64,000 bases of DNA from Sulfurospirillum diekertiae. GTDB taxonomy: Bacteria; Campylobacterota; Campylobacteria; Campylobacterales; Sulfurospirillaceae. The DNA is taken from contig NZ_CP039734.2 in the NCBI RefSeq assembly GCF_011769985.2, positions 2,480,001 to 2,544,000 of the forward strand, in the 5' to 3' direction. The translations under genes were made by a program, and so were the position numbers. The notes below the pieces were generated by a model that saw only the letters and a list, made by a program, of their open reading frames with translations, was not told where the DNA came from and ran no database searches. Shown here one piece after another: positions 3,283-21,836 of the stretch (positions are counted from its first letter, which is position 1; the number at the start of each line of letters is the position of its first letter).

Positions 3283-3678
3283 TTAATCTTTACATGTAAG
3301 ATAGTTTCGCCATCCACCATATTGACTGATTTCTTTCGCGCCTTTCAGAGCATCCGCTTCACATAAAAAGCCATACACACTGCTTCCATCTTCTAACACA
3401 ACCGTACCAATGCACAAAGGAGAAGCGATCTGCACCATAAATGCTCCAAAATTTTCCAGTGGCATTTCCCACACTTCCAGCTCTAGCGCGTATGAGCTCG
3501 TGCTGTCTTTGAGCATTCCTGGTCGGGGTGGTACTTTTTGGGGAACATCAAAGAGACGATACCCAGCAAGCGTTTTGCACGTTTTGACAAACACGGCGTC
3601 TAGGCTAAGCAGTTGATGATTGAGTGGCAGACCTTGCATATGTGCGCCACATACGGCAATTTGAATGGTTTTTTTCAT
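3283..3678 (-). CDS. Allophanate hydrolase C-terminal domain protein
   Basis: 131 residues matching the C-terminal domain of AtzF/DUR1-type allophanate hydrolases (features such as AVCGAHMQGLPLN near the start, YRLFDVP, PRPGM, and LEVWEMPLENFGAFM). In the fused enzyme this domain decarboxylates the N-carboxycarbamate made by the amidase domain, so that CO2 and ammonia are released. Here it is a separate gene whose start overlaps the amidase stop by 4 nt (ATGA), so the two halves are surely translated together. It is the last gene of the guanidine operon. A TTACATGTAA copy covers its last codons. Confidence 0.85.
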   Translation of the reverse strand: MKKTIQIAVCGAHMQGLPLNHQLLSLDAVFVKTCKTLAGYRLFDVPQKVPPRPGMLKDSTSSYALELEVWEMPLENFGAFMVQIASPLCIGTVVLEDGSSVYGFLCEADALKGAKEISQYGGWRNYLTCKD

Positions 3679-5003
3679 ATGGACTCCTTCATATAGCGTT
3701 CACCCATCTCCAGTAACGCTTCATCGTTAAAATGATCGGCAAAAATCGTAATGCCAAAAGGCAGATGATTGCTGCGTTCTCCTGCTGGCAAAGCATACGC
3801 CGCAAGATCGAGAAGGTTCATAAAATTGGTGTAATAGCCCAAATTGCTATTGAGCGTTATCGGGTCAGCTTGAATGGCTTCGATGGTATAAATCGTTCCC
3901 GTGGTCGGTGTTACACAAAAGTCCACTTCGGCCAAAATCTTCTCCGCCGCTCTGCGGTAAGCCTTGAGTTGATACTCTGCTTCAAAATACTCACTCGCTT
4001 TTTTTGCCTCACCTTGAGCAATAATGGCACGGGTTACCTCTAAAAAGCTCTTAGGCGATGTGTGAAGCAGTGTTTGAGTCGCAACATAACGTTCGCTTAC
4101 CCAAGGTCCACTGTACAGGAGATTGGCCGCTTCTAAAAATGGGGTAAAGTCAATTTCCTTAGGCACTCCACCTAAGCCAATCAAACGCTCTATACTCTTC
4201 TCAAACAGCACTTTTGCCTCTGTATCGCCAAAAAATTGAAGATCGCTCGCTTTGGGGACACCAAAGGTAAAGTTTAAAGGTATCGCACGCTTTTGGGGCG
4301 GTAACGCTCTAGCATAGACATCTTCTTCATCAAACGACGCCATAATCTCGAAGATCGCAGAAACATCGCTTGCCTCTTTACAAAACAATGAGACACAGTC
4401 CAAACTGCGACACGCGGGTACTACACCGGAGGTACTCACGACCCCTTTGCTGGCTTTAAAACCACAGAGATTATTAAACGCCGCAGGCACTCTGCCCGAA
4501 CCTGCTGTATCGGTTCCTAAAGAAAAAACGACCATATCAAGCGCAACACTCACCGCACTGCCTGAACTAGAACCGCCTGAAATATACGCAGAATCAATGC
4601 TATTTTGACATGCGCCATACGGCGAACGCGTACCCACAAGTCCTGTGGCAAATTGATCCAGATTGGTTTTGCCGATGGGAATCGCGCCCGCTTCAATCAG
4701 TTTTTCGACCACAAAAGCAGATCGCTCTGGCACATAGGTAAAATCAGGACACGCCGCAGTGGTAGGAATGCCCGCTAAGTCAATGTTGTCTTTAATCGCA
4801 AAAGGAACACCGTAAAGCGGTAATGCTTCCATCGAAGCTTGCTCCAGTCTCGTCAAGTAAGGCTCTAACTCCGTATCGCTTAACACATGCAACCAGATAG
4901 GATTGTCTGAAAAGTGTGCGATGCGCTCTTTAATCTGTTGCACCAATTCTCGTGGTGTACACGCATTTTGAGCGTAATTTTGCTTTACATGTAAAAGTGT
5001 CAT
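3675..5003 (-). CDS. atzF: Allophanate hydrolase, amidase domain
   Basis: 442 residues of the amidase-signature family. The Ser-cisSer-Lys triad is visible: Lys71 in AIKDNID, Ser145 in GGSSSGSA and Ser169 in GTDTAGSGR. It hydrolyses allophanate, the product of the carboxylase/deiminase steps encoded upstream, towards ammonia and CO2. The fused family members are about 600 residues; here the amidase part ends where the next gene (C-terminal domain) begins with a 4-nt overlap. At its own 5' end it overlaps the EamA gene by 4 nt. Position as the last enzymatic step matches the operon order. Confidence 0.87.
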   Translation of the reverse strand: MTLLHVKQNYAQNACTPRELVQQIKERIAHFSDNPIWLHVLSDTELEPYLTRLEQASMEALPLYGVPFAIKDNIDLAGIPTTAACPDFTYVPERSAFVVEKLIEAGAIPIGKTNLDQFATGLVGTRSPYGACQNSIDSAYISGGSSSGSAVSVALDMVVFSLGTDTAGSGRVPAAFNNLCGFKASKGVVSTSGVVPACRSLDCVSLFCKEASDVSAIFEIMASFDEEDVYARALPPQKRAIPLNFTFGVPKASDLQFFGDTEAKVLFEKSIERLIGLGGVPKEIDFTPFLEAANLLYSGPWVSERYVATQTLLHTSPKSFLEVTRAIIAQGEAKKASEYFEAEYQLKAYRRAAEKILAEVDFCVTPTTGTIYTIEAIQADPITLNSNLGYYTNFMNLLDLAAYALPAGERSNHLPFGITIFADHFNDEALLEMGERYMKESI

Positions 5004-5881
5004 GCTCTCTCCTTTGTCTCATCTTCTTGGTTTCGCACCGCTTCGATGAGCGCCGCACTGAGGATTAAAAATCCACCGATATATTCTCTCAAATCCATCG
5101 TTTCGCCTGCAATGATAGTTGCCGAAATGGCTGCAGTGATCAGCTCCATAATGATAATAATGGACGAACGCCCCGCTTCCATATGGGTCACGCCCCATTG
5201 TGAACCGATATTGGCAAGCAACAACCAAAGCAGTGCATACAAGCCAAGCGCTCCCCAAGCGTGAATTCCAACATTCATAACAAAAGGTTCCACATGGACT
5301 AAAAGTAAAAGTCCCGCTAACGCAAAACAGCCGTAAAACATGGCTCCGATTTTAGATGCCACGGGAACACTTTGCGCAAAACGAAATAGCAAGTTATTGA
5401 GCGCAAACAACAGTCCTGAAAGAAGCGCCAACGCATCCATCCAAGAAGGCGGTGTCTCTAAGATTTTAAAGCCGCCTAAAATTAAAAATGCCCCTAAAAC
5501 AGCCGCAACAACTCCAAACCAACGCCATCTATCAATACGCTCTTTTAAAAAAAAGTAGCCCCCTAAAACGCCCCATACGGGCAAAAGGTAAAAGAGTACC
5601 ATGACGCGTATGACGTCACCATTGATGAGCGAATAGGTAAACGCAAGGTTTGCCCCTCCGCCAAAGAGCGCGATGAGAAACATCACTTTGCGATGGCTCC
5701 ACCAGACTCTGCGTTGCCTTAAGAGTTGTGGACTCATCACCAAAGCGATGATGCCATACGCTCCTAAACTCAGCGTAATCCCTTGTATGCCCATCGCATT
5801 GATGGCTTTTAAGGGAATCCATGAAAGTCCCCATAAAATGGAAGCTCCGAATAAAACAATGACGGGTAAATAGGCTTTCAT
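5000..5881 (-). CDS. EamA/DMT-family transporter
   Basis: 293 residues with about ten hydrophobic segments and two EamA repeats (roughly 8-138 and 150-282), the drug/metabolite transporter fold. It sits between the carboxylase (5-nt gap) and the allophanate hydrolase (4-nt overlap), so it is part of the guanidine operon. Its substrate cannot be read from sequence. Context suggests movement of guanidine, urea, ammonium or a related compound, perhaps as an outlet when nitrogen is in excess. Confidence 0.8.
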   Translation of the reverse strand: MKAYLPVIVLFGASILWGLSWIPLKAINAMGIQGITLSLGAYGIIALVMSPQLLRQRRVWWSHRKVMFLIALFGGGANLAFTYSLINGDVIRVMVLFYLLPVWGVLGGYFFLKERIDRWRWFGVVAAVLGAFLILGGFKILETPPSWMDALALLSGLLFALNNLLFRFAQSVPVASKIGAMFYGCFALAGLLLLVHVEPFVMNVGIHAWGALGLYALLWLLLANIGSQWGVTHMEAGRSSIIIIMELITAAISATIIAGETMDLREYIGGFLILSAALIEAVRNQEDETKERA

Positions 5882-5886
5882 GATGC

Positions 5887-8800
5887 CTACGCTTTCAAAG
5901 GCTCTAAGATAAAAAGTTGTTTGCCCGCATAAATACTCTCACCCTCTTCGCACAAAATGTCGACAATCACGCCATCTTCTGGCGATTCGATTTCCACTTC
6001 CATCTTCATCGACTCAACGATAGCGAGGCTTTCACCCTCTTTCACCGTGTCGCCTACTTTGGCTAAAATCTTCCATAGATTGCCTTGAATTGGAGATTCA
6101 ACGGCTTCTTTATCGTCATCAATCACCACAGAAGCACTCTCATCATGGTGCTCTTCGTGTGCGCTTTGTGAGGTAAAATTGGCAAGACCTGTGCGCTCCC
6201 ACATGGTGCGTTCTTCTTCAAATGCGTTTTGTTGCGTGGCTTTAAAAGCTTTAATCGTGCTCTCATTTTCTTCTAAAAATGCTTGGTATTTTTTAAGGCT
6301 GAACGTCGTCTCTTCGATGCGCAGTTTGGCTCGTCCTCGTGGGAAATCCTCACGCAAACGCAGTAACTCTTCCGCACTCACTTCGTAAAAACGGATTTGG
6401 TCAAAAAAGCGCAATAACCAAGGTTTGCCTTCTTTAAAATCTTGGGTTTGACGGTGGCGATTCCACATTTGAACCGTGCGCCCTACAAACTGATAACCTC
6501 CTGGCCCTTCCATGCCGTACACACACATATACGCTCCACCAATGCCCACCGCATTTTCAGGTGTCCATGTTCGGGCGGGATTGTATTTAGTCGTGACCAA
6601 GCGGTGCCTTGGATCAAGCGGTGTCGCCACGGGAGCGCCTAGATAGACATCGCCCAAGCCCATAACCAAATAGCTCGCTTCAAACAAAATGCGCTTCACC
6701 TCATCAATGCTCTCTAAACCGTTGATGCGACGGATAAATTCAATATTGCTCGGACACCAAGGTGCATCAGGGCGGACGATTTTCATATACTTATCAATCG
6801 CAATGCATGTTTGTTCATCATCCCATGAAAGCGGTAAATGCACAATGCGCGCAGGCACTTCAATATCTTCAATCGACGGTAAAGAGAGCTCTAAGCGCTG
6901 TACTGTTTGCATCAATACCTCGCGCTCACACAAGCGAGGATTAAAATGAATTTGCAAGGAGCGAATCCCCGGGGTTAATTCAATGACACCCTTAATATTG
7001 GCATCCATAACGGCTTGCATCAACACATGTATGCGAAAACGCAAGCTAATATCGAGTTGCATTTCACCGTATTCAATCAGTAAGTTACTATCTCCTGATT
7101 GGCGAAAGGTTACACTTGGCAGAAGAGCACTGCTCTCATCGTGATACAAAATAGGCGAGCCTATCTCTTTTTCGTGGAGCATTAAGCGTTCATCGTATGT
7201 GGAAAGAGAGGCTATCGCCTCCTCTTGCAAACGAAGCATTTGCATCGCTTCATCATGGCAGATAGGCACAAACGTGATGGTGTCTCCCGCGCGCAACTGT
7301 CCTATCTTCCAAAGCTCTGCACTCACAATCGTCACAGGACAGACAAAACCGCCTAAACTTGGTCCATCAGGCCCTAAAATGACGGGCATATCACCCGTAA
7401 AATCCACTGCACCTATGGCATAGGCGGTATCGTGAATATTAGACGGATGTAACCCCGCTTCTCCCCCATCATTGCGCGCCCATGAAGGTTTAGGACCTAT
7501 GAGTCTCACTCCCGTGCGATTGGAGTTGTAATGCACTTCCCAACGTGCTTCAAAAAAGGATTTGATATCTTCATCCGTAAAAAAATCAGGTGCGCCATGC
7601 GGTCCATACAACACCCCAATGCGCCACTCATTTCCAAACGCTCTATAAGGTGTCATGGCTTCAAAATGGGCATTTTTGGCAACCATTGCATCGACATGCA
7701 AAACGTCTCCTGCAAGCAAAGCTCTTCCCGCATGCCCTCCAAAAAGGCCTAAAGAGAACGTCGAACGACTGCCAAGGTACAAAGGTACATCAATGCCCCC
7801 TCGTACCGCAAGGTAGGTTCGAAAGCCTTTAGTGTGCACTTTTTTCAGTTTTAAAACACTCCCAGCCTTTACATGTAACGCTTGGTTCATCCCCACTTTA
7901 ATGCCATCTAAAAAAGCATCGATCACCGCACCGCACAACGCGATAACACCTTCGTAATTAAACCGAAGCGTAGGCCCTGCAATGGCAATTTCAAATCCAG
8001 CAGCATCTTCACTATTGCCCACAAGGGCATTGGCATAGCGAAAACTGAGATTATCAAATGGACCACTGGGCGGCACGCCAATATCCCAATATCCGATTCT
8101 TCCCGGATAATCTTGTATCGTTGTATGGGTTCCCGGACGCAATACATCAATACTCTGAGGCGCAAAACGAAAGTGATTCAAAAACTTAGTGGTTTGCTTC
8201 CCTGCTTGAAAAACCTCACCTTCGACAATCGCGCCAAGGTAGTCTAAATTGGTTTCAATCCCATCAATGCGCGTCTCTTTAATTGCCTGCGCCATTTTGG
8301 CTAACGCGTTTTCTCGTGTATTTTCTTTCACAATAAGCTTTGCAATCATCGGGTCATAAAACGAAGAGACATTCAAACCCGTTTCAATAAACGTATCGCA
8401 ACGAATATGCGGTGCAAAATGCACGTGGGTGAGCACACCAGAGCTGGGTTGAAAGTTTTTCATTGGATCTTCAGCATACACACGCACTTGGATAGAATGC
8501 CCATGAGGCATGTGCTTATAATCGTACAATTCAGGATTATACCCAGACGCTTGATTCACCATCCACTGCACTAAGTCGATGCCACTGACCTCTTCGGTGA
8601 CACCGTGTTCGACTTGCAAACGGGTATTGACTTCCAAAAAGTAAAACTGCTCACTTTGCGTATCATAGACAAATTCAACCGTACCGGCGGAGAGATACTT
8701 GACCGACTCACACAAAGTACGCGCCGCACTCAAAAGCGCTTCGCGTGTCTTTACATGTAAAAAAGGTGCAGGTGTTTCTTCAATGACTTTTTGATTACGG

Positions 8801-9495
8801 CGTTGTACTGAACAGTCTCTCTCCCCAAGTGTTGCCACATAGCCTTTGCCATCACCAAAGACTTGCACCTCGATATGGCGCGCATGTTCAACGTATTTTT
8901 CTAAGAACATTCCGCCATTGGAGAAATTGTTTTCACTGAGGCGTTTGACCGAAGCATACGCATCGCAAAGGGCTTGTTCGTCATAACACAACTGCATCCC
9001 GATGCCACCACCGCCTGCTGTACTTTTAAGCATTACAGGGTAACCGATACGTTTGGCTTCCACTATTGCTTCATCTAAATCCAAGAGCAGTGAAGAGCCG
9101 GGAAGGAGAGGTACATGATTAGATTCTGCAAGAGCGCGTGCGGTATGCTTGAGCCCAAAAGCTTCCATATGTTCAGCCCGTGGCCCAATAAAGACAATGC
9201 CCTTTTCTTCACACGCTTTGGCAAACGCGGCATTTTCACTTAAAAATCCATACCCTGGATGAATCGCCTCCGTGCCACTTTTACAAACCACATCAAAGAT
9301 TTTTTGGGTGTTCAGGTAACTCTCGCTGGCTAATCCTTCACCGATACAATATGCCTCATCGGCTAAGCTTACATGTAAAGAATCTTCATCGGCTTTGGTG
9401 TACAAGGCAACAGAAGCAATGCCCATCTTTTTGAGTGTGCGTATGACGCGACACGCGATTTCGCCTCGGTTGGCGATCAGTATTTTTGAAAACAT
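5887..9495 (-). CDS. Biotin-dependent guanidine (urea) carboxylase
   Basis: 1202 residues, full length for the urea carboxylase family. Order: biotin carboxylase with ATP-grasp (about 1-450; [23 protein letters not shown]), carboxyltransferase halves of the KipA/AHS2 type (about 470-770; [10 protein letters not shown]) and KipI/AHS1 type (about 800-1020), then a biotinyl domain with ESMKMEVEI (Lys1164 carries biotin). These enzymes carboxylate urea to allophanate or guanidine to carboxyguanidine. The two guanidine riboswitches and the two DUF1989 genes point to guanidine as the real substrate (inference from the Pseudomonas syringae guanidine pathway). RBS AGGATGAGAA precedes the ATG, directly below the guanidine-II element. 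Confidence 0.9.
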
Positions 9496-9516
9496 TTCTC
9501 ATCCTGTATGATGGTT

Positions 9517-9557
9517 TTGGGTCGTCCCAAGTTCATCTCTTTTCTAGGCCGTCCTAG
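9517..9557 (-). promoter_or_regulatory. Guanidine-II (mini-ykkC) riboswitch
   Basis: On the minus strand two short hairpins lie 13 nt apart: CTAGG-ACGG-CCTAG (9557-9544) and TTGGG-ACGA-CCCAA (9530-9517). Twin stems with ACGR tetraloops are the defining feature of the mini-ykkC/guanidine-II class, in which two guanidines are bound by the paired loops. The second hairpin ends 21 nt before the carboxylase start and 9 nt before its AGGA site, which fits control of translation. A CCTAG segment upstream (9574-9579) could compete with the first stem. Confidence 0.8.
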
Positions 9558-9594
9558 CAAAGAAGAAGATACGCTCTTCTAGGCGGTTATGCGA

Positions 9595-10218
9595 TCACTC
9601 TTTATCCCAGACGATCATCTGAATGGGTGTTGGATTAAATCCATTGCACGGATTGTTGAGCTGTGGGCAGTTGGAAACTAGGACTAAGGTATCCATTACC
9701 GCTGTCATTTCGACATAATCGCCCGGTTTGGAGATACCATCGACAATCGCTAAGTGACCGTTTTCTTCCACGGGGACATTCATAAAAAAGTTAATATTAT
9801 TGGTCAGATCACGAGGATTCATCTCCAATTCACCGACTTCAAACAAAAAGTTATCGCGACAACTGTGCATGTACTTTTTATCATGCCCAAAACGTACCGT
9901 ATTGCTCTCGGCACTGCAATGTCCACCAAGGGTATCATGGTTTCCACAGGTATCTGCTACCACTTCCATGAGTACGTTATCATCACTGGAGATCAGTTTC
10001 GTTCCTGTGGTGATAAAGATACTGCCTTGCTCTCGTATCGTATCGGACGCACTGTAACGCTCTTCATGATCATTTGCATTATAAAACAGTGTATCAACCG
10101 CTTGACATCCCTCTAAATCCACAATGCGCAAAGTTTGCCCTTTATAAATGACTTTTGACCATGGAATGCCAGAAGGCACATGTTCGTTGTAAATGGCGGT
10201 TTGAATTTCTCTTTTCAT
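9595..10218 (-). CDS. Carboxyguanidine deiminase-type subunit (DUF1989, UAAP2-like)
   Basis: 207 residues from ATG 10218 (AGGAG 5 nt upstream; a GTG one codon earlier is possible). Family DUF1989, formerly 'urea carboxylase-associated protein 2'. The conserved metal-site-like residues are present: Cys92, His95 and Cys102 in DTCGNHDTLGGHC (numbers counted from the GTG). In the guanidine pathway two such proteins (CgdA/CgdB) form carboxyguanidine deiminase, which turns carboxyguanidine into allophanate and ammonia. It lies 9 nt after its paralogue and 99 nt before the carboxylase. Because it keeps the Cys/His set it is the likelier catalytic subunit. Confidence 0.8.
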   Translation of the reverse strand: MKREIQTAIYNEHVPSGIPWSKVIYKGQTLRIVDLEGCQAVDTLFYNANDHEERYSASDTIREQGSIFITTGTKLISSDDNVLMEVVADTCGNHDTLGGHCSAESNTVRFGHDKKYMHSCRDNFLFEVGELEMNPRDLTNNINFFMNVPVEENGHLAIVDGISKPGDYVEMTAVMDTLVLVSNCPQLNNPCNGFNPTPIQMIVWDKE

Positions 10219-10227
10219 CACATCTCC

Positions 10228-10965
10228 TTACGCAAAATAGCGGGCATTGTTCTCAAAACCACGTTTGGCTTCGGGACTAAAATTCATACAAAAATCATCT
10301 TCACTCAAAGGAGCGCCTTGGTAAATCGTGATTTGCACATCACTGGGGTTATAGACTCCTTTTTCCATCACATGCGGTGTGTTGGAGAGCACTAAAAGCA
10401 CATTCATCTCTGCTCTAAGTTCAATATAACCACATGGCTCTGGGCGCAACGGTGAGAGAGAAAGTTTGCTCCCCTCTTTCACATCGACTTTACGAAACAG
10501 ATTCAGACACGCAACGATGTCTCGTTTTCCCATACCGTATTTTCCAAGTTCTACCAAAAAATTTTCACGATCACTCTTGTAGTAGCGGTTGCGTATATCG
10601 TTAAATGAGCCTTCGCCAAAATTCTCTTTGACAAGGCGTGGATTGCTCATGCCCGCCACTGTATCCATGAGTCCGTTGGTCGTATCTTCGGTAATAGAAA
10701 AGAGAATATGTCCGAGTTCTGAAAACAGAACTTTGCCTTTTCCTAAAAATGCGTTCCATTGAATTTTAACCGTATCGGCAAAGTTATAACGCTCGGCTGT
10801 ATTATCGGCATTGTAAAAAAGAGCACTGACGGCTCCTTTGCCATCTTCCGTACTGATACGTACTTTTTGACCTCGCTTGATGATTTTAGACCATTTTGCA
10901 CCGCCGGGCAATACTTCATCCAGCACAATACACTCTTGCTTAAGATTGAGATGTTTGCTTATCAT
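10228..10965 (-). CDS. Carboxyguanidine deiminase-type subunit (DUF1989, UAAP1-like)
   Basis: 245 residues, DUF1989 family, paralogous to the next gene (shared GAVSALFYNADNTAERYNFADT / AVDTLFYNANDHEERYSASDT block). The region that carries Cys-His-Cys in the partner reads EDTTNGLMDTVAGMSNP here, so the putative metal ligands are missing. This fits a structural or regulatory subunit of a heteromeric carboxyguanidine deiminase. Its start overlaps the ABC ATPase stop by 4 nt. Family is certain; subunit role is inference. Confidence 0.78.
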   Translation of the reverse strand: MISKHLNLKQECIVLDEVLPGGAKWSKIIKRGQKVRISTEDGKGAVSALFYNADNTAERYNFADTVKIQWNAFLGKGKVLFSELGHILFSITEDTTNGLMDTVAGMSNPRLVKENFGEGSFNDIRNRYYKSDRENFLVELGKYGMGKRDIVACLNLFRKVDVKEGSKLSLSPLRPEPCGYIELRAEMNVLLVLSNTPHVMEKGVYNPSDVQITIYQGAPLSEDDFCMNFSPEAKRGFENNARYFA

Positions 10966-11741
10966 AATGCTTCCCTCGTTATCGTTTGATTAATTTTTTT
11001 AAACACAGTTTCCTTCTCCTTTTTATCGTGAAGAGGAATATCATAGGTTATTTTCGCACCAAAGGCATTCGGTGCTTGTGGGTCAAGGCGTACTTTATCG
11101 AACACCAGAAGCCTTGTTCCTAAGTAAAATCCTTCGTGAAGATCATGCGTGACCATCACGACCGTTAAATTATTTTTTTTCCATAAATCCAAAATGAGTG
11201 CGTGCATATCAGCCCTGATACCCGGATCAAGTGCACCAAAGGGCTCATCGAGAAGCAACAGTTTTGGCTTTTTCACCAACGATTGCGCGATGGAGAGACG
11301 CTGCTGCATACCGCCTGAGAGTTGACTTGGATAGTGATGTAACACATCACCTAATCCCACAGCTTCAAGCATCGCTATCGCCTCTTCACGTGCTCTTTTC
11401 TTCGCTTTACCAAAGAGTTTGCCCAAAAGAGGCGAAGCCCCTAGTTCAATGCCGAGCATCACATTTTCCAATACACTCAGATGCGAAAAGAGTGAATAGC
11501 GCTGAAAAACAATACCTCGCTCAGCGCTCGGCTCGGTAGGAAACGGTTTGCCTTCAAATAGAAACAGACCTTTTGTCGGGCTCTCTTCCCCTAAGAGCAT
11601 TTTTAAAAACGTACTCTTGCCACAGCCTGAAGGACCAACCAGCGTACAAAATTCTCCTGCTTCAATATTTAAGGAGAGGTTTTCCAACACAACCGTTTCA
11701 CCATAGCGTTTCCACAGGTTCTTAATGGTGATTAAACTCAT
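10962..11741 (-). CDS. ABC importer ATP-binding protein (nitrate/taurine type)
   Basis: 259 residues. Walker A GPSGCGKST (about 37-45), signature LSGGMQQR and Walker B LLLLDEPFGALD are intact. It is the energising subunit for the permease and binding protein encoded upstream. Overlaps of 4 nt with the permease and with the DUF1989 gene show tight translational coupling. Riboswitch control and neighbours suggest guanidine (or a guanidine-releasing compound) as substrate. Confidence 0.88.
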   Translation of the reverse strand: MSLITIKNLWKRYGETVVLENLSLNIEAGEFCTLVGPSGCGKSTFLKMLLGEESPTKGLFLFEGKPFPTEPSAERGIVFQRYSLFSHLSVLENVMLGIELGASPLLGKLFGKAKKRAREEAIAMLEAVGLGDVLHHYPSQLSGGMQQRLSIAQSLVKKPKLLLLDEPFGALDPGIRADMHALILDLWKKNNLTVVMVTHDLHEGFYLGTRLLVFDKVRLDPQAPNAFGAKITYDIPLHDKKEKETVFKKINQTITREAL

Positions 11742-12556
11742 GCTTTATCCTTATTTTCGTACCATGGGAAAAGTTTACATGTAAACTTTTTGAGTAGAAA
11801 ATCTGCTAAAAAAGCCAACAACGTAATCCAAATAACATAGGGTAAAATCATATCCATTGCCAAATAACGACGCACCAAAAAGATGCGATACCCAAGCCCC
11901 TCCGTTGCAGCAATAGCTTCTGAGGAGATCAAAAATATCCACGCGGTTCCTAAGGTCAAACGCACCGAATCTAAAAGACGCGGAAGCATTTGCGGAAGGA
12001 TGATGCGAATTACAAGCGTCCATGTCGAAGCGCCCAATGTTTGCGCTTTAATCAGCTGCTCTTTGGAAAACTCCTCCACTCGGTGTTGTAAATCACGCAC
12101 AATAAGCGGTGTAACCCCGATAACAATGAGTGCCACTTTTGCCACTTCCCCCATCCCAAATATAATAAAAAGGATAGGCAAAATGGCAATCGGTGGCACC
12201 ATTGAAAAAGCGGCGATAAACGGTGAAAAACCCGCCCTGACCAACGGAATAAGCCCTAGAGGAATGCTAATGATAAGCCCCAAAAGAGCGCTAATTACCA
12301 CGCCAATGCCTAAACGTTTGAGCGAGGAGAGCGTATCATTGATAAAAATAACCTCTCCTGAGCGCTTGCTAGGAGTTAAGGCCGATTTTTCCATCGTGTC
12401 AACCATATGCGAAAAGGAAGGTAAGAGTTTATCATCTTCATTTTCCTGTAGCCTTGCATTCGATGCAAAAACATACATTAACACAATCAGTAAAAAAGGC
12501 ATCAGTCCTAGCACAAGAGCTTTGGAATGGGAAGGCTTTTGGTTAATCAGTCGCAT
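11738..12556 (-). CDS. ABC importer permease (SsuC/NrtB type)
   Basis: 272 residues with about six membrane helices and the EAA-type loop (KAQTLGASTWTLVIRIILPQMLPRLL, about 165-190, shown in part as LGASTWTLV). It belongs to the binding-protein-dependent transport family used for nitrate, sulfonates and similar small solutes. Near residue 260 the palindrome TTACATGTAA is read in frame as F-T-C-K. A 37-nt gap separates it from the binding protein gene. Confidence 0.86.
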   Translation of the reverse strand: MRLINQKPSHSKALVLGLMPFLLIVLMYVFASNARLQENEDDKLLPSFSHMVDTMEKSALTPSKRSGEVIFINDTLSSLKRLGIGVVISALLGLIISIPLGLIPLVRAGFSPFIAAFSMVPPIAILPILFIIFGMGEVAKVALIVIGVTPLIVRDLQHRVEEFSKEQLIKAQTLGASTWTLVIRIILPQMLPRLLDSVRLTLGTAWIFLISSEAIAATEGLGYRIFLVRRYLAMDMILPYVIWITLLAFLADFLLKKFTCKLFPWYENKDKA

Positions 12557-12593
12557 AGTTCATCCTCTTTGATCGAGAGTTTTAACAAAACCC

Positions 12594-13661
12594 TTACAGT
12601 TTACCTTCACTCGCTAATTTCATATATTCATCGCTAAAACGAAGCTTGATATTGCTTGCACTGCCATACGCTTTTCCATTTGGAAATGCCATACCGACAA
12701 ACGTTGCATCTTTAGCGCCATCACCTAAAATGCCATGCTCAAAGGAAAACTCACTTACTTTTTGCATTGTTGCAGGCAGTGCCGCACTGGTTGAAAAGGC
12801 TAAAGCATCTTTCGCATCGTAAAACATTTTGGTGGTTTTAAGTTGGCTGTTAAAACCCACGACATCCGTTCCAGAAGCTTTTGCCATCATGCTAATCGCT
12901 TGTGCATCACCTTTTTTCATTTGTGCCATCACTTCATACCATGCGCCTGTAAGTGCTTTAGCAAGCTTTGGATTATCTTGCATCGTTTTGGTGTTTAACA
13001 CAAGCATATCGATAATTTCGCCAGGGATTTTGCTGGAATCAAAAGCCAAGGTTGCACCTTTCATCGCTTTGATTTCACTGAGTTGTGGATTCCATGTAAC
13101 TAAAGATGTCACATCTTTAGAAGAAAAAGCAGCCACGATATCGGCATCAGAGGTGTTAACCACTTTCACATCTTTTTCGCTCATCCCAACCGATTCAAGT
13201 CCACGTGCTAAAAGATAGTGAGAAACAGAGAGTTCCACTAAATTGACATTTTGACCTTTGATATCGGAGAGTTTTTTCTTATCTTTGAGGATAATACCAT
13301 CGTTTCCATTGGAGAAATCGCCAATGATAACCGCTGTTGAATCCACACCACCCGCTGCTGGGATAGTCAATGCATCCATATTGGTCATCACACAGCCATC
13401 AAATTTGCCTGCGGTATATTGATTGATGGATTCGACATAGTCATTGACTTGTACCATCTTTATCTCAATACCGTATTTTTTAGCCCATTTGTCAATAATG
13501 CCAGATTGCTCAGCATAATCCCAAGGCATCCAGCCAACGTAAATGGTCCAAGCCACTTGAAATTTATCTTTAACTTCTGCTGCAAGAGTAGAAGCACCAA
13601 TGGACATAGCCAGCGTTGCGGCAACTAATAACTTAAGGGTGGGTGAGAAGAAAGAGTTCAT
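12594..13661 (-). CDS. ABC importer periplasmic substrate-binding protein (guanidine locus)
   Basis: 355 residues from ATG 13661, chosen for the AGGAG 7 nt upstream; the frame is open to 13691, but that extension would lie in the riboswitch leader. Residues 1-28 (MNSFFSPTLKLLVAATLAMS...) are a signal peptide ending at a LAAE-like site. The mature protein resembles NMT1/SsuA-type binding proteins (YVGWMPWDYAEQSGIIDKWA). It is the first gene behind the guanidine-I riboswitch, so it should bind guanidine or a close relative. Confidence 0.85.
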   Translation of the reverse strand: MNSFFSPTLKLLVAATLAMSIGASTLAAEVKDKFQVAWTIYVGWMPWDYAEQSGIIDKWAKKYGIEIKMVQVNDYVESINQYTAGKFDGCVMTNMDALTIPAAGGVDSTAVIIGDFSNGNDGIILKDKKKLSDIKGQNVNLVELSVSHYLLARGLESVGMSEKDVKVVNTSDADIVAAFSSKDVTSLVTWNPQLSEIKAMKGATLAFDSSKIPGEIIDMLVLNTKTMQDNPKLAKALTGAWYEVMAQMKKGDAQAISMMAKASGTDVVGFNSQLKTTKMFYDAKDALAFSTSAALPATMQKVSEFSFEHGILGDGAKDATFVGMAFPNGKAYGSASNIKLRFSDEYMKLASEGKL

Positions 13662-13701
13662 AAGAGGCTCCTGAGTAGATAAGATTAACACGCCAAGAGG
13701 T

Positions 13702-15945: not shown

Positions 15946-16893
15946 TTAGGCACTAAAACTAACAGAACTACTTGAAAGAGTATTTTGGGTAGCGTAATTC
16001 GAGATGATTTGCGCTAAAAGTGCTTTCATCAAGGAATTTTCAGTCGTACTCTCATCGGTTGTTACAGAAGCACTGGTTGTTGTACCAATACTTGCCGCTT
16101 TCGTAGAGTCTTGGTATGCCTTCGCTTCAGCAGAAGTCACTTTGCCATCGCCGTTGCTATCAGCCGCATCGAAATTCTGAGCCAATGTATCAAAAAGAGA
16201 AGCAAGGTCACTATCGGTTGATGAAGTATCACTCGCCATAGCGGTAAGTTCATCTTTCGTATAGCCCGTATCTTCTTGTGTAGAAGAGGACGGTGGCGGA
16301 GGAGGTGGGGGCATACTTCCTGACGCTGCAACGTTACTTGCATCGGTTGTTCCACTGGTTGTCGTATCTTGTTGCGTTGATTGCTGATAAGCCATAGCTT
16401 CAGCAGAGGTTACCTTACCATCACCATTGGTATCAGCTGCTGAGAAATTCTCAACCACTGAAGAAAGTAATGAGGCAAGATTGCTGTCTGTAGATGAAAC
16501 TTCACTCGCCATAGCGGTAAGCTCATCTGCCGTATAACCTGTATCTGTTTGCGTAGAAGAAGACGATGACGGAGGAGGTGGGGGCGTACTTCCTGCCGCT
16601 GCTGTAGACTGCTGCGCGGATAGCATAGACGTTAATTCATCTACACTGATCTTGCCGTCTCCATTACTATCAAGTGCTTTAAAAGCGTTATTGACTGTGC
16701 TTTCATCAGCATTTGAAAGTTTTAGAGCAGCACTGCTAAACTCAGTACTGTCCACAGAACCACTCGAATCACTATCCATAGAAGTAAGCAACTCTTCTGC
16801 GAATTTTGACATTAACGAGCTAGTACTGCTGGTACTGCTGCCATACGTCGCGTACGATGACGTTCCGTAAAGAGAATTTGAACTTATAGTCAT
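15946..16893 (-). CDS. EF-hand repeat protein with polyproline linkers
   Basis: 315 residues from ATG 16893 (AGGAGGAG upstream); the open frame to 17001 lacks an RBS. Four calcium-loop motifs: residues 40-51 (DSDSSGSVDSTE), 75-86 (DSNGDGKISVDE), 154-165 (DTNGDGKVTSAE) and 245-256 (DSNGDGKVTSAE). Two near-identical ~70-residue units (about 103-172 and 195-262) each start with a run of prolines and Ser. No signal peptide is seen, so it is cytoplasmic or secreted by a non-Sec route. It probably binds Ca2+. It is a single gene next to a two-component system whose kinase also has a polyproline patch. Confidence 0.75.
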   Translation of the reverse strand: MTISSNSLYGTSSYATYGSSTSSTSSLMSKFAEELLTSMDSDSSGSVDSTEFSSAALKLSNADESTVNNAFKALDSNGDGKISVDELTSMLSAQQSTAAAGSTPPPPPSSSSSTQTDTGYTADELTAMASEVSSTDSNLASLLSSVVENFSAADTNGDGKVTSAEAMAYQQSTQQDTTTSGTTDASNVAASGSMPPPPPPPSSSTQEDTGYTKDELTAMASDTSSTDSDLASLFDTLAQNFDAADSNGDGKVTSAEAKAYQDSTKAASIGTTTSASVTTDESTTENSLMKALLAQIISNYATQNTLSSSSVSFSA

Positions 16894-17101
16894 ATTCTCC
16901 TCCTTTATTTGGCTTGGGGATATCCCAGTAGCAATGCTAACGCTAAAGCAGTAAACAAAGAGTAACATAATGAAAAATCGTAACAATGGGCGAACAATCA
17001 AAAAAGTTGATCTTTTGCTTCAAAAATTTTTAATTTTTAGGAGAGTAGAATGAATATACTTTAGGACAATATTTTATCTTGCCTTCAAGAGGAGTCACAA
17101 C

Positions 17102-18748
17102 ATGCATCTTTTTCTCAAACGCTTCTTCTCTTTCTTGATCGCCTTTATTCCCACGTTTATGTTGGCCGATATCAACGATGAAATCAGTGCTGCACATCTG
17201 CTCATCTACCAAGGCAAATATGCCCAAGCCGAAACAACCTATACGCAACTTATGACGCCGGCATCGGAAGAATTTATTGCCGGAACCGCTTTAGTCGATA
17301 TGCTCCATTTTTATCGAGGAACAGCTCGATTGATCCAACACAAAAATCAATCAGCTCAAGAAGATATCGAAGCAGCTTTGCATCCTCAAAGCAGTATGAT
17401 GTACGATGACACCGGATATATGCTTCGCGCGAGACTCCGCTTGATGCAAGGCGATACCAAAGGTGCTTTCGAGGACTATGATGCCCTTCTTAAAACCACG
17501 CAAAAAGGTATCGCAAACGGTTATCGCTTGTCAATGGCTCTAGCTCAGCGCGGTTGGGCGTATATCCTTTTAGGAGAACAAGAAGCAGCTAAAAAAGATT
17601 TTCTGGCTGCTATTGCAACTGAGACAACTATGATCGGCATGGAGTTAAACTCTCTCCAAAAACCGTTTTGGCAAGCCGTCGTGCAGGAAATCATTCCTCT
17701 TGTCGGTACGCACAATGATGTGTTGATCATCAAAACACTTGACGATATTTTAAAGAAACAACAACTAACAACCTATCCTTTTACGGATGATCGAAGTGTA
17801 CACGACGAAAGAAATTTTTCGAATGTTATTTTGATGTATGAAGTCTACGGTCCTGCTTTTTTACTACGAGAAAAAATACAAAAAGAAAAAGCACAAACAT
17901 ACCAAGCCAACGTCAATACCCTTTTTGCTTCCGCGCAACAATCTCTTTTAAAAGGCGACAAACTCGGTGCATTCAATAGTTTTGTGAATGCTTTCCAACA
18001 TTCAGCGCCAGAAGATCAAACCAGTCGTACAACTGCTGTGCAAGGGATGTCAGGCATTATTCGCTCCGGGTTTACGCCACCCGCACCTACAGAAAGTTCA
18101 CGTAAACTTGCCATTAAAGCACAAGTCGTTGCTCAAGAAAAAGCGTATCAAGAGGCGATCGAACTCTATGCCCAAGCCATCAATGAAACACCTTGGGTTG
18201 CCAATTTTTACTATGATCATGCTTTATTGATAGCCGAGGCGGTGCAAAAAAGCGACGATTATAATGCCGCCATCGCCGAAATGAAACGTTTTATTCTCCT
18301 TTCTACCAATGCTTTGGAAATTCGAGAAGCACAAGATCGAATTTATCAATGGGAAGTCAAACGAGACCGAAGCGCACAAAAACAAAATGCTGCACCGCAA
18401 GGTCCGCATCTCTCATCCAGCGCAACAGGGAGTTCCAGCGATTGTTTTATCGCAACAGCGGCATATGGCTCTTTTCTCGATCCCCATGTCGTCACTTTAA
18501 GACATTTTCGTGACCGCTATCTCCTTACGAATGCACCAGGTCAATGGGTCGTCGAGAATTATTATCACTACTCGCCACCTATTGCCGATAGTATCCGGAA
18601 AAACTCTGCTTTACGATTATTGACACAAATGGTTTTAACGCCCATTGTTTTTTGCATCGAATATCCAATTTTTTTGAGTATTCTTATCAGTAGCTTTGGC
18701 CTTTTGTTTTGGTTTAAAAAGCGCTCTTCTAGGTTCATTATCCGATGA
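17102..18748 (+). CDS. Exported TPR protein with CFI-box C-terminal domain
   Basis: 548 residues. Signal peptide at 1-21 ([15 protein letters not shown]). Residues about 25-170 and 330-400 hold TPR-like helices ([30 protein letters not shown]). From Cys448 the motif [16 protein letters not shown], then [12 protein letters not shown] and YHYSPPIAD, is the CFI-box C-terminal domain, followed by a membrane helix (about 510-537) and a basic tail (FKKRSSRF). The conserved Cys before a helix and basic end looks like a processing or anchoring signal (inference). It heads a three-gene operon with 4-nt overlaps. Confidence 0.75.
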
Positions 18749-19923
18749 AACGCTTTATATTCTGTTTGAGTCTATGGCTTACTTCGCAGACACTTGATGC
18801 GGAAAGCGCTCTACAGCAACTCTACGATGCCGGCGGTTCGCCCCCTGAAGTTCCAATGCCACAGCTGAAAACACAACCGTATAATAGCGGTACTTCTTCG
18901 ACATCCTCGTCATCAACGCCTCGAAGTACGTCGCCAAAACCTTCTCGCGCACCCAGTCCGGCAGCCACCGTCGGAGCTACCGTCTTTGGAGCCCTTTTAG
19001 AGAGCGTCCTTTTTGACACTCCATCCAATGCGCCAGATCCCGAAACGTTACGCCAACAAGAAGAGGAACAACGACAAGCGCAAGAAGCCGCAAAAAAACA
19101 AGAACAAGAGGCGCAAAAACAACATCAAAACCTGATGCACTCTTTCAAAAGTGTTCCCGTTGCAACAACAACCACAGAGACAACCTCACCCTCTTCTGGA
19201 CTTTTGTTTAAATCTGCACAAACCTTGAAAGAGACAAAAATTGACACGAGTTCAAACGAAGCAATGAGAGAATCTGCTTCTAGACCTTTTGACGGAGGCA
19301 CTTCGCATATGGCTTTGCCATTGACATGGAAACCTTATCCACTTGGAAAAACGCCCGTCTCTTTTTCAAAACCAAGTGTATTATGTCAAAACAAAGCCTG
19401 TACATGGCCGAAAGCAACACCTCTTAACACGACGCTTCCCAAAGCAACTGTACGTCACACGCCGATCAATCTTGCTCAAATAGGCGTACCTACGGCACCC
19501 AATCCCAGTACGCTTCTTAAAACCATTTTAGCTTCCAAAGAACAAGATACAACGCAATTTTACGTTATTCTCAATCGCTTAAGTTATTTTGGTAAAGAGA
19601 TCGGTAAAGAACTTTTAACAAGTATCGCCATGAAACTTTTAGAGTCAACACCTGCGGGAGAAAAAATCGCTTTAATGAAAGAGGTACACGATCTAGCGAC
19701 CAACGATATGGAGGATGCTAACAAAGTTGCGTTATGGCTTGGATCAACAAATATTGACCAACCTCCTGAAATTACCTCATTGGCAGATGATGCTAAACCT
19801 TTTTTAATACGCGGCATCAGCACCCAAGAGTCCTTTGAAAAGTTAGGCGAACTGATCAGCGATACCAACGACGTGTTTGACATGTCGGCAAAATTTTCCG
19901 ATATTATTAAGAATATGCCATGA
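18745..19923 (+). CDS. Exported low-complexity protein, unknown
   Basis: 392 residues, not recognised. Signal peptide 1-19 ([19 protein letters not shown]). About 45-80 is Ser/Thr/Pro-rich, about 95-130 is a Gln/Glu/Lys-rich helix (probable coiled coil: [20 protein letters not shown]), and about 255-390 looks folded and helical. A lone Cys pair (LCQNKACTW) may form a disulfide. It overlaps its neighbours by 4 nt on both sides, so it acts with the CFI-box protein and the propeller-like protein, presumably in the envelope. Confidence 0.6.
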
Positions 19924-20687
19924 AATATCTCATCATTTCCCTTCTTTTTTCATTGCTCTCATACGCATCGGAAATCGAATTAGCACCGAAATTAATGTTA
20001 AATAGTATGCCAAAAGCACTAATCGATAAAATTGATTGGTGTCAAAACACCCAACTTCACGTCGATGCGAACGGATTGTGGATTTTGTCGCAAACCAACC
20101 TATTAAGGCTTGATAAACCGGGGAAAGCATTGATGGCGCCATTGCACACCACTTCGTTTAGCCTCGCCAAAAGTGGTCATCCCATCGCTGTCGTCGATGA
20201 TCGATTAGGACTCATTCGCCACGGCATTTTTCTGCCGGGACCAAAACTTCCCGATGCTAACTATGTTCTTGCACAAGGGCAAAATGACACGCTGTATGTG
20301 TATAATCCACAAAAAGTAACTCCCATATATCGTTTTGACGGTCAAATGATTCGTTCGATTGCTCAGCCTAGCCAACCTGTTTTAGCACTGAGTGCTTTAG
20401 GCGACAGTATTGTATTTGCAACCAAAGAGGGAATTTTTACGCTTCAAGAAAATAAGCCGTTAGGCCTTGTGATGCCTTTAGCCGAGTTTGGTCCCATCAC
20501 TTCCCTTGCAGTCAACACCCAAACAGCAGAAATTTTTGTCGGTACGCCCCATGCCGTTTACAGTCTTCAGACGAATGTCATGGTTCCTTTAGTGACCGGA
20601 ATCGGAGGAACGATTGCTTTTTACGACAATCGCTTATGGATCGCCGATGCTTCTTTGCATCAGCTCTATATTTTAACGCCAAAGTAG
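19920..20687 (+). CDS. Exported beta-propeller-like protein, unknown
   Basis: 255 residues with a signal peptide ([18 protein letters not shown]). The rest is a series of short beta repeats (GLWILSQTNLLRLD, DSIVFATKEGIFTL, AEIFVGTPHAVYSL, NRLWIADASLHQLYIL), which suggests a small beta-propeller of the kind found in periplasmic binding or scaffold proteins. No catalytic motif is seen. Last gene of the CFI-box operon; its stop lies 3 nt from the convergent nspC stop. Confidence 0.6.
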   Translation: MKYLIISLLFSLLSYASEIELAPKLMLNSMPKALIDKIDWCQNTQLHVDANGLWILSQTNLLRLDKPGKALMAPLHTTSFSLAKSGHPIAVVDDRLGLIRHGIFLPGPKLPDANYVLAQGQNDTLYVYNPQKVTPIYRFDGQMIRSIAQPSQPVLALSALGDSIVFATKEGIFTLQENKPLGLVMPLAEFGPITSLAVNTQTAEIFVGTPHAVYSLQTNVMVPLVTGIGGTIAFYDNRLWIADASLHQLYILTPK

Positions 20688-20690
20688 ATA

Positions 20691-21836
20691 TTAATTGCGT
20701 CTTTTGTATTCATCATACCCAAACTGGCTCGTCACTTCGTAGCGTCCATCTTTGTGAAGAACGGCTAAATCGGGCAGTTTCACGCCATTAAATGTGGTGT
20801 TTTTAACGATGGTATAGTGGATCATATCTTCAAAAATCAGTTTGTCACCAATTTTGAGTGGTGCATCAAAACTGTAATCGCCCATGATGTCGCCTGCCAA
20901 GCACGTTGGCCCTCCAAGGCGGTACACGTACGGTTTTTCACCCACTTCTCCCGCACCGCGAATCTGTGCGCGATACGGCATTGCTAAGGTGTCAGGCATA
21001 TGCGCTTCGGCGGAAATGTCTAAAATGGCGATGTCCATGCCATTGTGCACGATGTCTAAAACACTCGCTACCAATGGTCCTGTTTGCCACCCCACCGCTT
21101 CACCCGGTTCCAAATACACTTTAATGCCATTATATCGCGCTCTAAAATCGTTAATGATTTTGATAAGTTTTTCCACATCATACCCATCTCGAGTGATGTG
21201 ATGCCCTCCTCCAAAATTGACCCATTTCATGCGAGGAATCAACGCTCCAAAACGCTCCTCAAAGCCTTTTAAAACTTCTTCAAGCGCACTGGCATCTTGC
21301 TCACAAAGGGCGTGAAAATGAAGTCCTTCAATGCCTTCAAGATTGTCATACTGCATGTTCTCTTTCGTAATACCCAAGCGACTGTAAAGCCCACAAGGAT
21401 TGTAAAGATCGACGGGGCTGGAAGAGACTTCAGGGTTAAGACGTAAACCACAACTCGTTTTTCCAAGTGCTTTTGCTTTGTATTTTTCCCATTGATGGAA
21501 CGAATTAAAAATAAGATGGTCACTTAACGCGATCACCTCATCAATATCCTCTTCTTTATACGCGGGCGAATAGGTATGAATTGTACCTTTAAAATACTCT
21601 TTCGCAAATTTAGCTTCGTGAAGTCCACTGCAGGTACAGCCGCTCAAATAGCGATCGACCAAAGGAGCAAGTGCTTTAAATGCAAAGCCTTTAAGAGCGA
21701 GTAAAACGGTAGCACCTGAACGTTTGGCAACCTCTTCTAAAAGAGTCAAGTTTTGTTCTAATAACTGCTCTTCACACACATACACCGGTGTTTTAATCTC
21801 ATGTAAAATAGTTTCGATACGACTTATTTTTAACAT
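20691..21836 (-). CDS. nspC: Carboxynorspermidine/carboxyspermidine decarboxylase
   Basis: 381 residues from ATG 21836; an extension to 21950 would run into the promoter region shared with the chemoreceptor. PLP-binding Lys49 in LLALKGFAF, GGGHHITRDGYDVE (about 215-228), and CLAGDIMGDYSF near the C-terminus mark the NspC branch of alanine-racemase-fold decarboxylases. It removes CO2 from carboxyspermidine (or carboxynorspermidine), the last step of the alternative spermidine route that Campylobacterota use instead of SpeE. The matching dehydrogenase is at 25469-26683. Confidence 0.88.
   Translation of the reverse strand: MLKISRIETILHEIKTPVYVCEEQLLEQNLTLLEEVAKRSGATVLLALKGFAFKALAPLVDRYLSGCTCSGLHEAKFAKEYFKGTIHTYSPAYKEEDIDEVIALSDHLIFNSFHQWEKYKAKALGKTSCGLRLNPEVSSSPVDLYNPCGLYSRLGITKENMQYDNLEGIEGLHFHALCEQDASALEEVLKGFEERFGALIPRMKWVNFGGGHHITRDGYDVEKLIKIINDFRARYNGIKVYLEPGEAVGWQTGPLVASVLDIVHNGMDIAILDISAEAHMPDTLAMPYRAQIRGAGEVGEKPYVYRLGGPTCLAGDIMGDYSFDAPLKIGDKLIFEDMIHYTIVKNTTFNGVKLPDLAVLHKDGRYEVTSQFGYDEYKRRN

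Follow-up and report, generated by a model that had tools for sequence, protein, structure and literature searches.

The window analysed here is a stretch of 64,000 nucleotides from Sulfurospirillum diekertiae. Its positions 17102-20687 carry three genes on the + strand, with consecutive pairs overlapping by 4 nt, at 18745-18748 for genes 1 and 2 and at 19920-19923 for genes 2 and 3. A tightly coupled operon had been proposed at this place; the two overlaps are indeed present, and the gene order is kept in three of the three genomes carrying the set. The features are listed below.

17102..18748, + strand: gene 1, TPR protein of 548 aa (ORF list, NCBIfam, Pfam, hydropathy and predicted fold), made of a signal-like N-terminus, helical repeats, the CFI-box (448-516), a hydrophobic helix (~511-540) and a basic tail
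18443..18649, + strand: CFI_box_CTERM domain (NF041770) of gene 1, starting at Cys448 (profile match, alignment and model)
18632..18745, + strand: end of gene 1 (residues 511-548), formed by its hydrophobic helix and basic tail, with weak conservation (dN/dS 0.405)
18745..19923, + strand: gene 2, Ser/Thr/Pro-rich protein of 392 aa with a signal-like N-terminus, without known family
19920..20687, + strand: gene 3, predicted beta-propeller of 255 aa with a signal-like N-terminus, without known sequence family
16977..20690, strand not assigned: variable slot, defined by flank homology to relatives

Probable exported products of the three genes

Hydrophobic N-termini were seen in all three products by eye and by hydropathy, the weakest being that of gene 2 (peak of 1.13 over 15 residues). 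Judged from these sequences, the products of genes 1, 2 and 3 are probably exported.

Gene 1 had been described as a TPR protein with a C-terminal CFI domain at Cys448, a membrane helix and a basic tail, and all these features were confirmed. Residues 448-516 match the NCBIfam model CFI_box_CTERM (NF041770) over its full length (model positions 1-69 of 69; E 6.2e-31, 106 bits for a curated cut-off of 40 bits), Cys448 being the first residue of the match. This model covers the domain only, whereas gene 1 joins it to TPRs and a hydrophobic helix, and other carriers join it to cold-shock, Mrr, CAP, RTX, GYF or reprolysin domains. The domain sits C-terminally, with 101 residues from Cys448 to the C-terminus (72-109 among the 37 proteins examined). 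The hydrophobic segment starts near residue 511, 63 positions after Cys448, and the tail is basic, with a net charge of +4 over residues 538-547. The TPR matches are weak: Pfam TPR_2 reaches 30.0 bits over the whole protein (cut-off 27), with no single repeat passing alone. A TPR-like stretch also matches phrog_7590 of PHROGs (function unknown; residues 331-424, E 3.3e-7).

The predicted model of gene 1 combines a TPR-like helical repeat, the CFI helices and a long hydrophobic helix, at moderate confidence (mean pLDDT 74.1, pTM 0.51); residues 451-520 are modelled as helices with a block pLDDT of 88-95. Most of the proteins that Foldseek returned for this model are named as TPR or other helical-repeat proteins, and their TM-scores are low. 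The first PDB hit, 8gl8_I from a type IX secretion complex, was discarded as a relative, its TM-score of 0.26 not being meaningful. The viral structure library gave no match at E 0.001, and sequence searches of solved structures gave nothing significant with gene 1 (best E 0.1) or with the CFI profile (best E 1.6).

Ser, Thr, Leu, Ala and Pro are abundant in gene 2, and the residues at about 100-130 are E/Q/K-rich; the low-complexity character attributed to the protein is apparent in this composition. A Cys pair (214, 219) is conserved in all three copies. No match was found in Pfam or NCBIfam at E 0.1, and the best hit of its profile among the sequences of solved structures (E 0.81) is not significant.

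The propeller-like nature suggested for gene 3 is borne out by structure prediction, which gives a beta-propeller fold; the five models, built from three sequences, range in mean pLDDT from 78.6 down to 58.3. Comparison by VIA, where rows within Z 1 of each other count as tied, retrieved designed Pizza6 propellers (Z 20.1), the PknD extracellular domain as the best natural protein (Z 19.8, 2.9 A over 220 residues) and the Campylobacter jejuni Cj1041c structure (Z 18.3). The PknD domain is also the top Foldseek row. From such best matches, the propeller is inferred to be six-bladed. Gene 3 would thus share its predicted fold with NHL-type six-bladed propellers such as PknD and Cj1041c, but identity to these two is 14-16% and a common fold shows no function. 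Pfam has no match to gene 3 at E 0.1, the best NCBIfam score of 12.1 bits lies far below cut-off, and the profile search of solved-structure sequences is not significant (best E 0.26).

Distribution of the set and the slot shared with kdp

The same three-gene order was sought elsewhere, as the original prediction had suggested, and was found in another genome of the genus (G009; protein identities of 89, 92 and 88% to window genes 1, 2 and 3) and in a Sulfurimonas MAG (L015; 63, 54 and 57%), where the adjoining genes differ from those of the window. The latter locus belongs to genome G379, as judged by matching contig coordinates. Both copies show matching 4-nt overlaps if genes 2 and 3 start where they align with those of the window; in the mechanical ORF lists, gene 2 begins upstream of the aligned start in both. 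That the order recurs in G009 and in the MAG, with protein identities of 54-92%, is more than chance on this sequence comparison.

The set is rare. Gene 3 was found at E 0.001 in three of 397 phylum genomes, the window genome included, and gene 2 in four; this sample was drawn from a larger group, and absence in it is no proof of absence elsewhere. The fourth gene 2 match, in G100, looks spurious (E 9.5e-4 over 38 residues). Each of the two genes is present in 2 of 100 relatives, gene 3 in one of 228 Sulfurimonas-like family genomes (G379 itself), and the TPR part of gene 1 in two of the 44 genomes of the window's family (E 1e-10). A global genome scan with two short peptide patterns, taken from two similar sequences, gave one locus, which again does not prove absence elsewhere. 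Since genes 2 and 3 coincide nearly completely in their occurrence, the three genes seem, from these sequence searches, to be gained or lost together.

Purifying selection acts on all three genes, with dN/dS values between window and G009 of 0.077, 0.078 and 0.100 for genes 1, 2 and 3. The operon is real and conserved, as well as rare, strain-variable and accessory, in a set known from three genomes, two of them of one genus; its role probably lies in the envelope.

The strain variability is best seen in G100, a genome of the same species without the operon. Homology between window and G100 ends at 16976 and resumes at 20691, and the G100 slot holds KdpA (744 bits, cut-off 388), KdpB (1011, cut-off 528) and KdpC (203, cut-off 178), followed by a KdpD-like kinase (617 bits, below the cut-off of 1123) and by a 227-aa ORF where G015 and G013 have a response regulator, which is KdpE-like but below cut-off. 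The G015 slot has the kdp genes as in G100, with that regulator. In five of eight neighbouring loci (G100, G015, G013, G020 and G012), kdp lies between the EF-hand gene and nspC; in G013, G020 and G012, three more genes follow towards nspC. Of the other loci, G019 has kdp near nspC and no EF-hand gene seen in the stretch, G008 has other genes adjoining nspC and no kdp in the part listed, and G011 has about 81 bp in the slot. The kdp names come from family searches for G100 (A, B, C and D), for G020 and G012 (KdpA) and for G015 and G013 (regulator); elsewhere they rest on ORFs of similar size with similar beginnings. The KdpD-like gene of G020 is seen as two overlapping ORFs of 478 and 402 aa (L048:4370-6981, - strand), in place of the single one of about 897 aa present in relatives.

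When six genomes were searched for KdpB, full matches were found in G100 and G015 and no match of this grade in the window genome, G009, G011 and G379, where the best are 27-31% identical, a level to be expected of other P-type ATPases. This agrees with a published comparison, in which ACSDCE and ACSTCE are stated to be the only ones of the organohalide-respiring strains compared to lack the potassium-transporting ATPase (PMC8865925). A gene-level account of this published gap can be offered: in the window genome, which is probably ACSDCE, the operon occupies the slot that holds kdp in G100.

Synonymous divergence between window and G009 is 0.56-0.80 for the operon and 1.0-2.6 for six other neighbouring genes (misframed nspC rows were left out of this and of the dN/dS comparison). 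These lower values hint at transfer of the operon cassette after the two lineages split, a reading weakened by the EF-hand gene, whose synonymous divergence is 0.58. This EF-hand protein (15946-17001, - strand) contains repeated blocks of low complexity and is listed among the ORFs with a TTG start; its gene adjoins an ArsS-type histidine kinase and response regulator, and DNA homologous to it lies at the slot in G009 and in six of the eight neighbouring loci. Further upstream, 3283-13691 (- strand) encodes urea carboxylase (1202 aa), two urea-amidolyase-associated proteins and an ABC transporter with a urea-type substrate-binding protein, together with an allophanate hydrolase divided between two overlapping ORFs (442 and 131 aa), which match consecutive parts of a single model.

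A mobile element or phage origin of the operon was rejected. No similar DNA was found among plasmids, no plasmid match was obtained with the gene 2 and gene 3 proteins, and neither for the TPR part of gene 1 nor for gene 3 was a relative found in viral contigs, as searched with exact short patterns that distant relatives can escape. The short stretches at the two ends of the operon share no exact repeat of at least 9 bases, and in GC and GC3 the operon departs by less than one standard deviation from 31 other genes of the window. Exchange by recombination between flanking genes would be the simpler reading. A defence system was likewise set aside, the sole PADLOC match at E 0.1 being a weak TPR hit of 11.1 bits.

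A candidate periplasmic complex and its alternatives

With moderate confidence, we read the locus as an accessory envelope operon behaving as a single cassette, which would encode a membrane-anchored TPR scaffold and two exported partners forming a periplasmic complex; the folds are predicted ones, and we infer the complex, the export and the topology. Gene 1 would be exported and then anchored in the inner membrane through its C-terminal helix, presenting its TPR superhelix in the periplasm, and the CFI-box may sit as a folded collar of helices between TPR arm and membrane. Gene 2 is pictured as an extended exported protein and gene 3 as a soluble propeller, both of which would probably dock on the TPR scaffold to give the periplasmic complex. 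The cassette itself may be exchanged with kdp between strains by recombination. An operon of this kind gives the CFI-box a compact genetic setting, with one scaffold and two partners, in which its role can be tested.

The three genes could also be co-transcribed while working independently, gene 3 as a ligand-sensing propeller, gene 1 as a structural TPR protein and gene 2 as a surface or periplasmic filler. This appears rather unlikely: the PknD extracellular domain, first in Foldseek and the best natural protein by VIA Z for gene 3, belongs to a fold that serves many functions and would suit such a role, but the joint presence of the genes in three genomes, with their order kept, speaks against independence.

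Another candidate function is that of a helper for outer-membrane assembly or secretion. The BamD/BamB and Tol-type envelope sets combine TPR, propeller and coiled-coil proteins, and the likeness of the operon to them lies in this same mix of fold types. Gene 1 even gives a BamD match (TIGR03302), but its 19.9 bits are well under the cut-off of 81.4. The operon moreover differs from these sets in showing no family-level match, gene 3 matching no family above cut-off, and in its anchoring, gene 1 looking helix-anchored and not like a lipoprotein. We regard this helper role as improbable, and return to the scaffold with two exported partners as the favoured reading.

The CFI-box and the sorting-signal question

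The profile search found the CFI-box in 11 of 397 phylum genomes (2 of 14 control genomes matched, below cut-off) and in one protein of the window genome (E 0.001). Three of the 11 have it in the TPR-CFI operon and four in frames of 1385-1558 aa that on inspection resemble PKD-type repeat proteins. One cold-shock-like protein (L066, by inspection) and one reprolysin-like protein (L067, by Pfam) were also seen, and the remaining two are short frames at L065 and L068; these last, two of six new CFI loci, were left out of the protein counts, no motif having been found there. Plasmid records contain 20 CFI-box matches and phage records one, and 20 loci were found in viral contigs with a pattern fixing the first residues of the domain. 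Five of 42 CFI-box proteins were domain duplicates, leaving 37 distinct proteins.

Among these 37, a hydrophobic helix follows the domain in nine, starting 55-72 positions after the Cys, and is absent in 28 at a hydropathy cut-off of 1.8, to which two of the 28 come close (1.78 and 1.68). Of ten CFI-box proteins searched against Pfam, six carry cold-shock, Mrr endonuclease (with WYL), RTX, CAP, GYF or reprolysin domains, two gave weak matches alone and two gave none. From their domains and the absence of hydrophobic segments, several of these proteins look cytosolic. In an alignment of 18 rows, ten positions are invariant, the Cys included; it is also invariant in a 25-row alignment, whose viral rows were selected by a pattern demanding it. 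The CFI-box thus looks like a folded module common to cytosolic-type and exported proteins, their location being deduced from domains and hydropathy.

This occurrence in both types of proteins argues against the sorting signal that the original prediction had seen in the Cys, helix and basic end of gene 1. Such a signal would resemble MYXO-CTERM: Cys448 would be modified, the helix removed and the TPR protein displayed at the surface, genes 2 and 3 providing processing or display parts. The resemblance to the MYXO-CTERM / myxosortase sorting tag (PMC11980579) comprises the invariant Cys, a later membrane helix, which follows the CFI domain in 9 of 37 proteins, and the basic tail that ends the window copy of gene 1. 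In MYXO-CTERM, however, the helix comes after a short signature motif, and dozens of substrates per genome are typical (PMC11980579), whereas the helix of gene 1 lies 63 positions beyond a Cys that opens a predicted helical domain of about 70 residues, and the genome has a single CFI-box protein. The same domain ends cold-shock or Mrr-endonuclease proteins without such a helix, and the three operon proteins gave no match to a protease or transpeptidase family (NCBIfam and Pfam, E up to 0.1). Furthermore, between window and G009 the helix and tail of gene 1 drift (dN/dS 0.405 over 38 codons), unlike the CFI part (0.058 over 63 codons). On the Cys-helix distance, the cytosolic-type CFI-box proteins, the copy number and the helix drift, sorting is very unlikely.

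It would be equally far-fetched, at present, to see in the operon an undescribed accessory envelope machine that compensates in strains without Kdp, and in the CFI-box a helical module for docking near the membrane, of general use, whose invariant Cys would serve alike in periplasmic TPR proteins, cold-shock proteins and cytosolic nucleases. No described function for the CFI-box was found in the literature searched, which covers few subscription papers.

Variable neighbours of CFI-box proteins in relatives had been put forward as evidence against the proposal. They do vary for CFI-box proteins generally, but the TPR-CFI subfamily keeps its order in three of three genomes. Neighbours were inspected at 12 of the 21 plasmid and phage loci and mostly differ; three small CFI-box genes adjoin nuclease genes or lie one gene from them. 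On a Haliscomenobacter plasmid (L056:1007-2722), the CFI-box gene shares one base with a downstream gene annotated as septum formation initiator, which is followed by an Hsp70 gene, and a WD40 repeat gene lies upstream of the CFI-box gene. The small plasmid CFI-box proteins, of 136-141 aa, come from three genera (L054:2309-2728, L060:2318-2728 and L062:1812-2237). The genes of the first two adjoin PD-(D/E)XK or Dna2/Cas4-type nuclease genes and that of the third is one gene away; these proteins possibly form a nuclease-associated subfamily.
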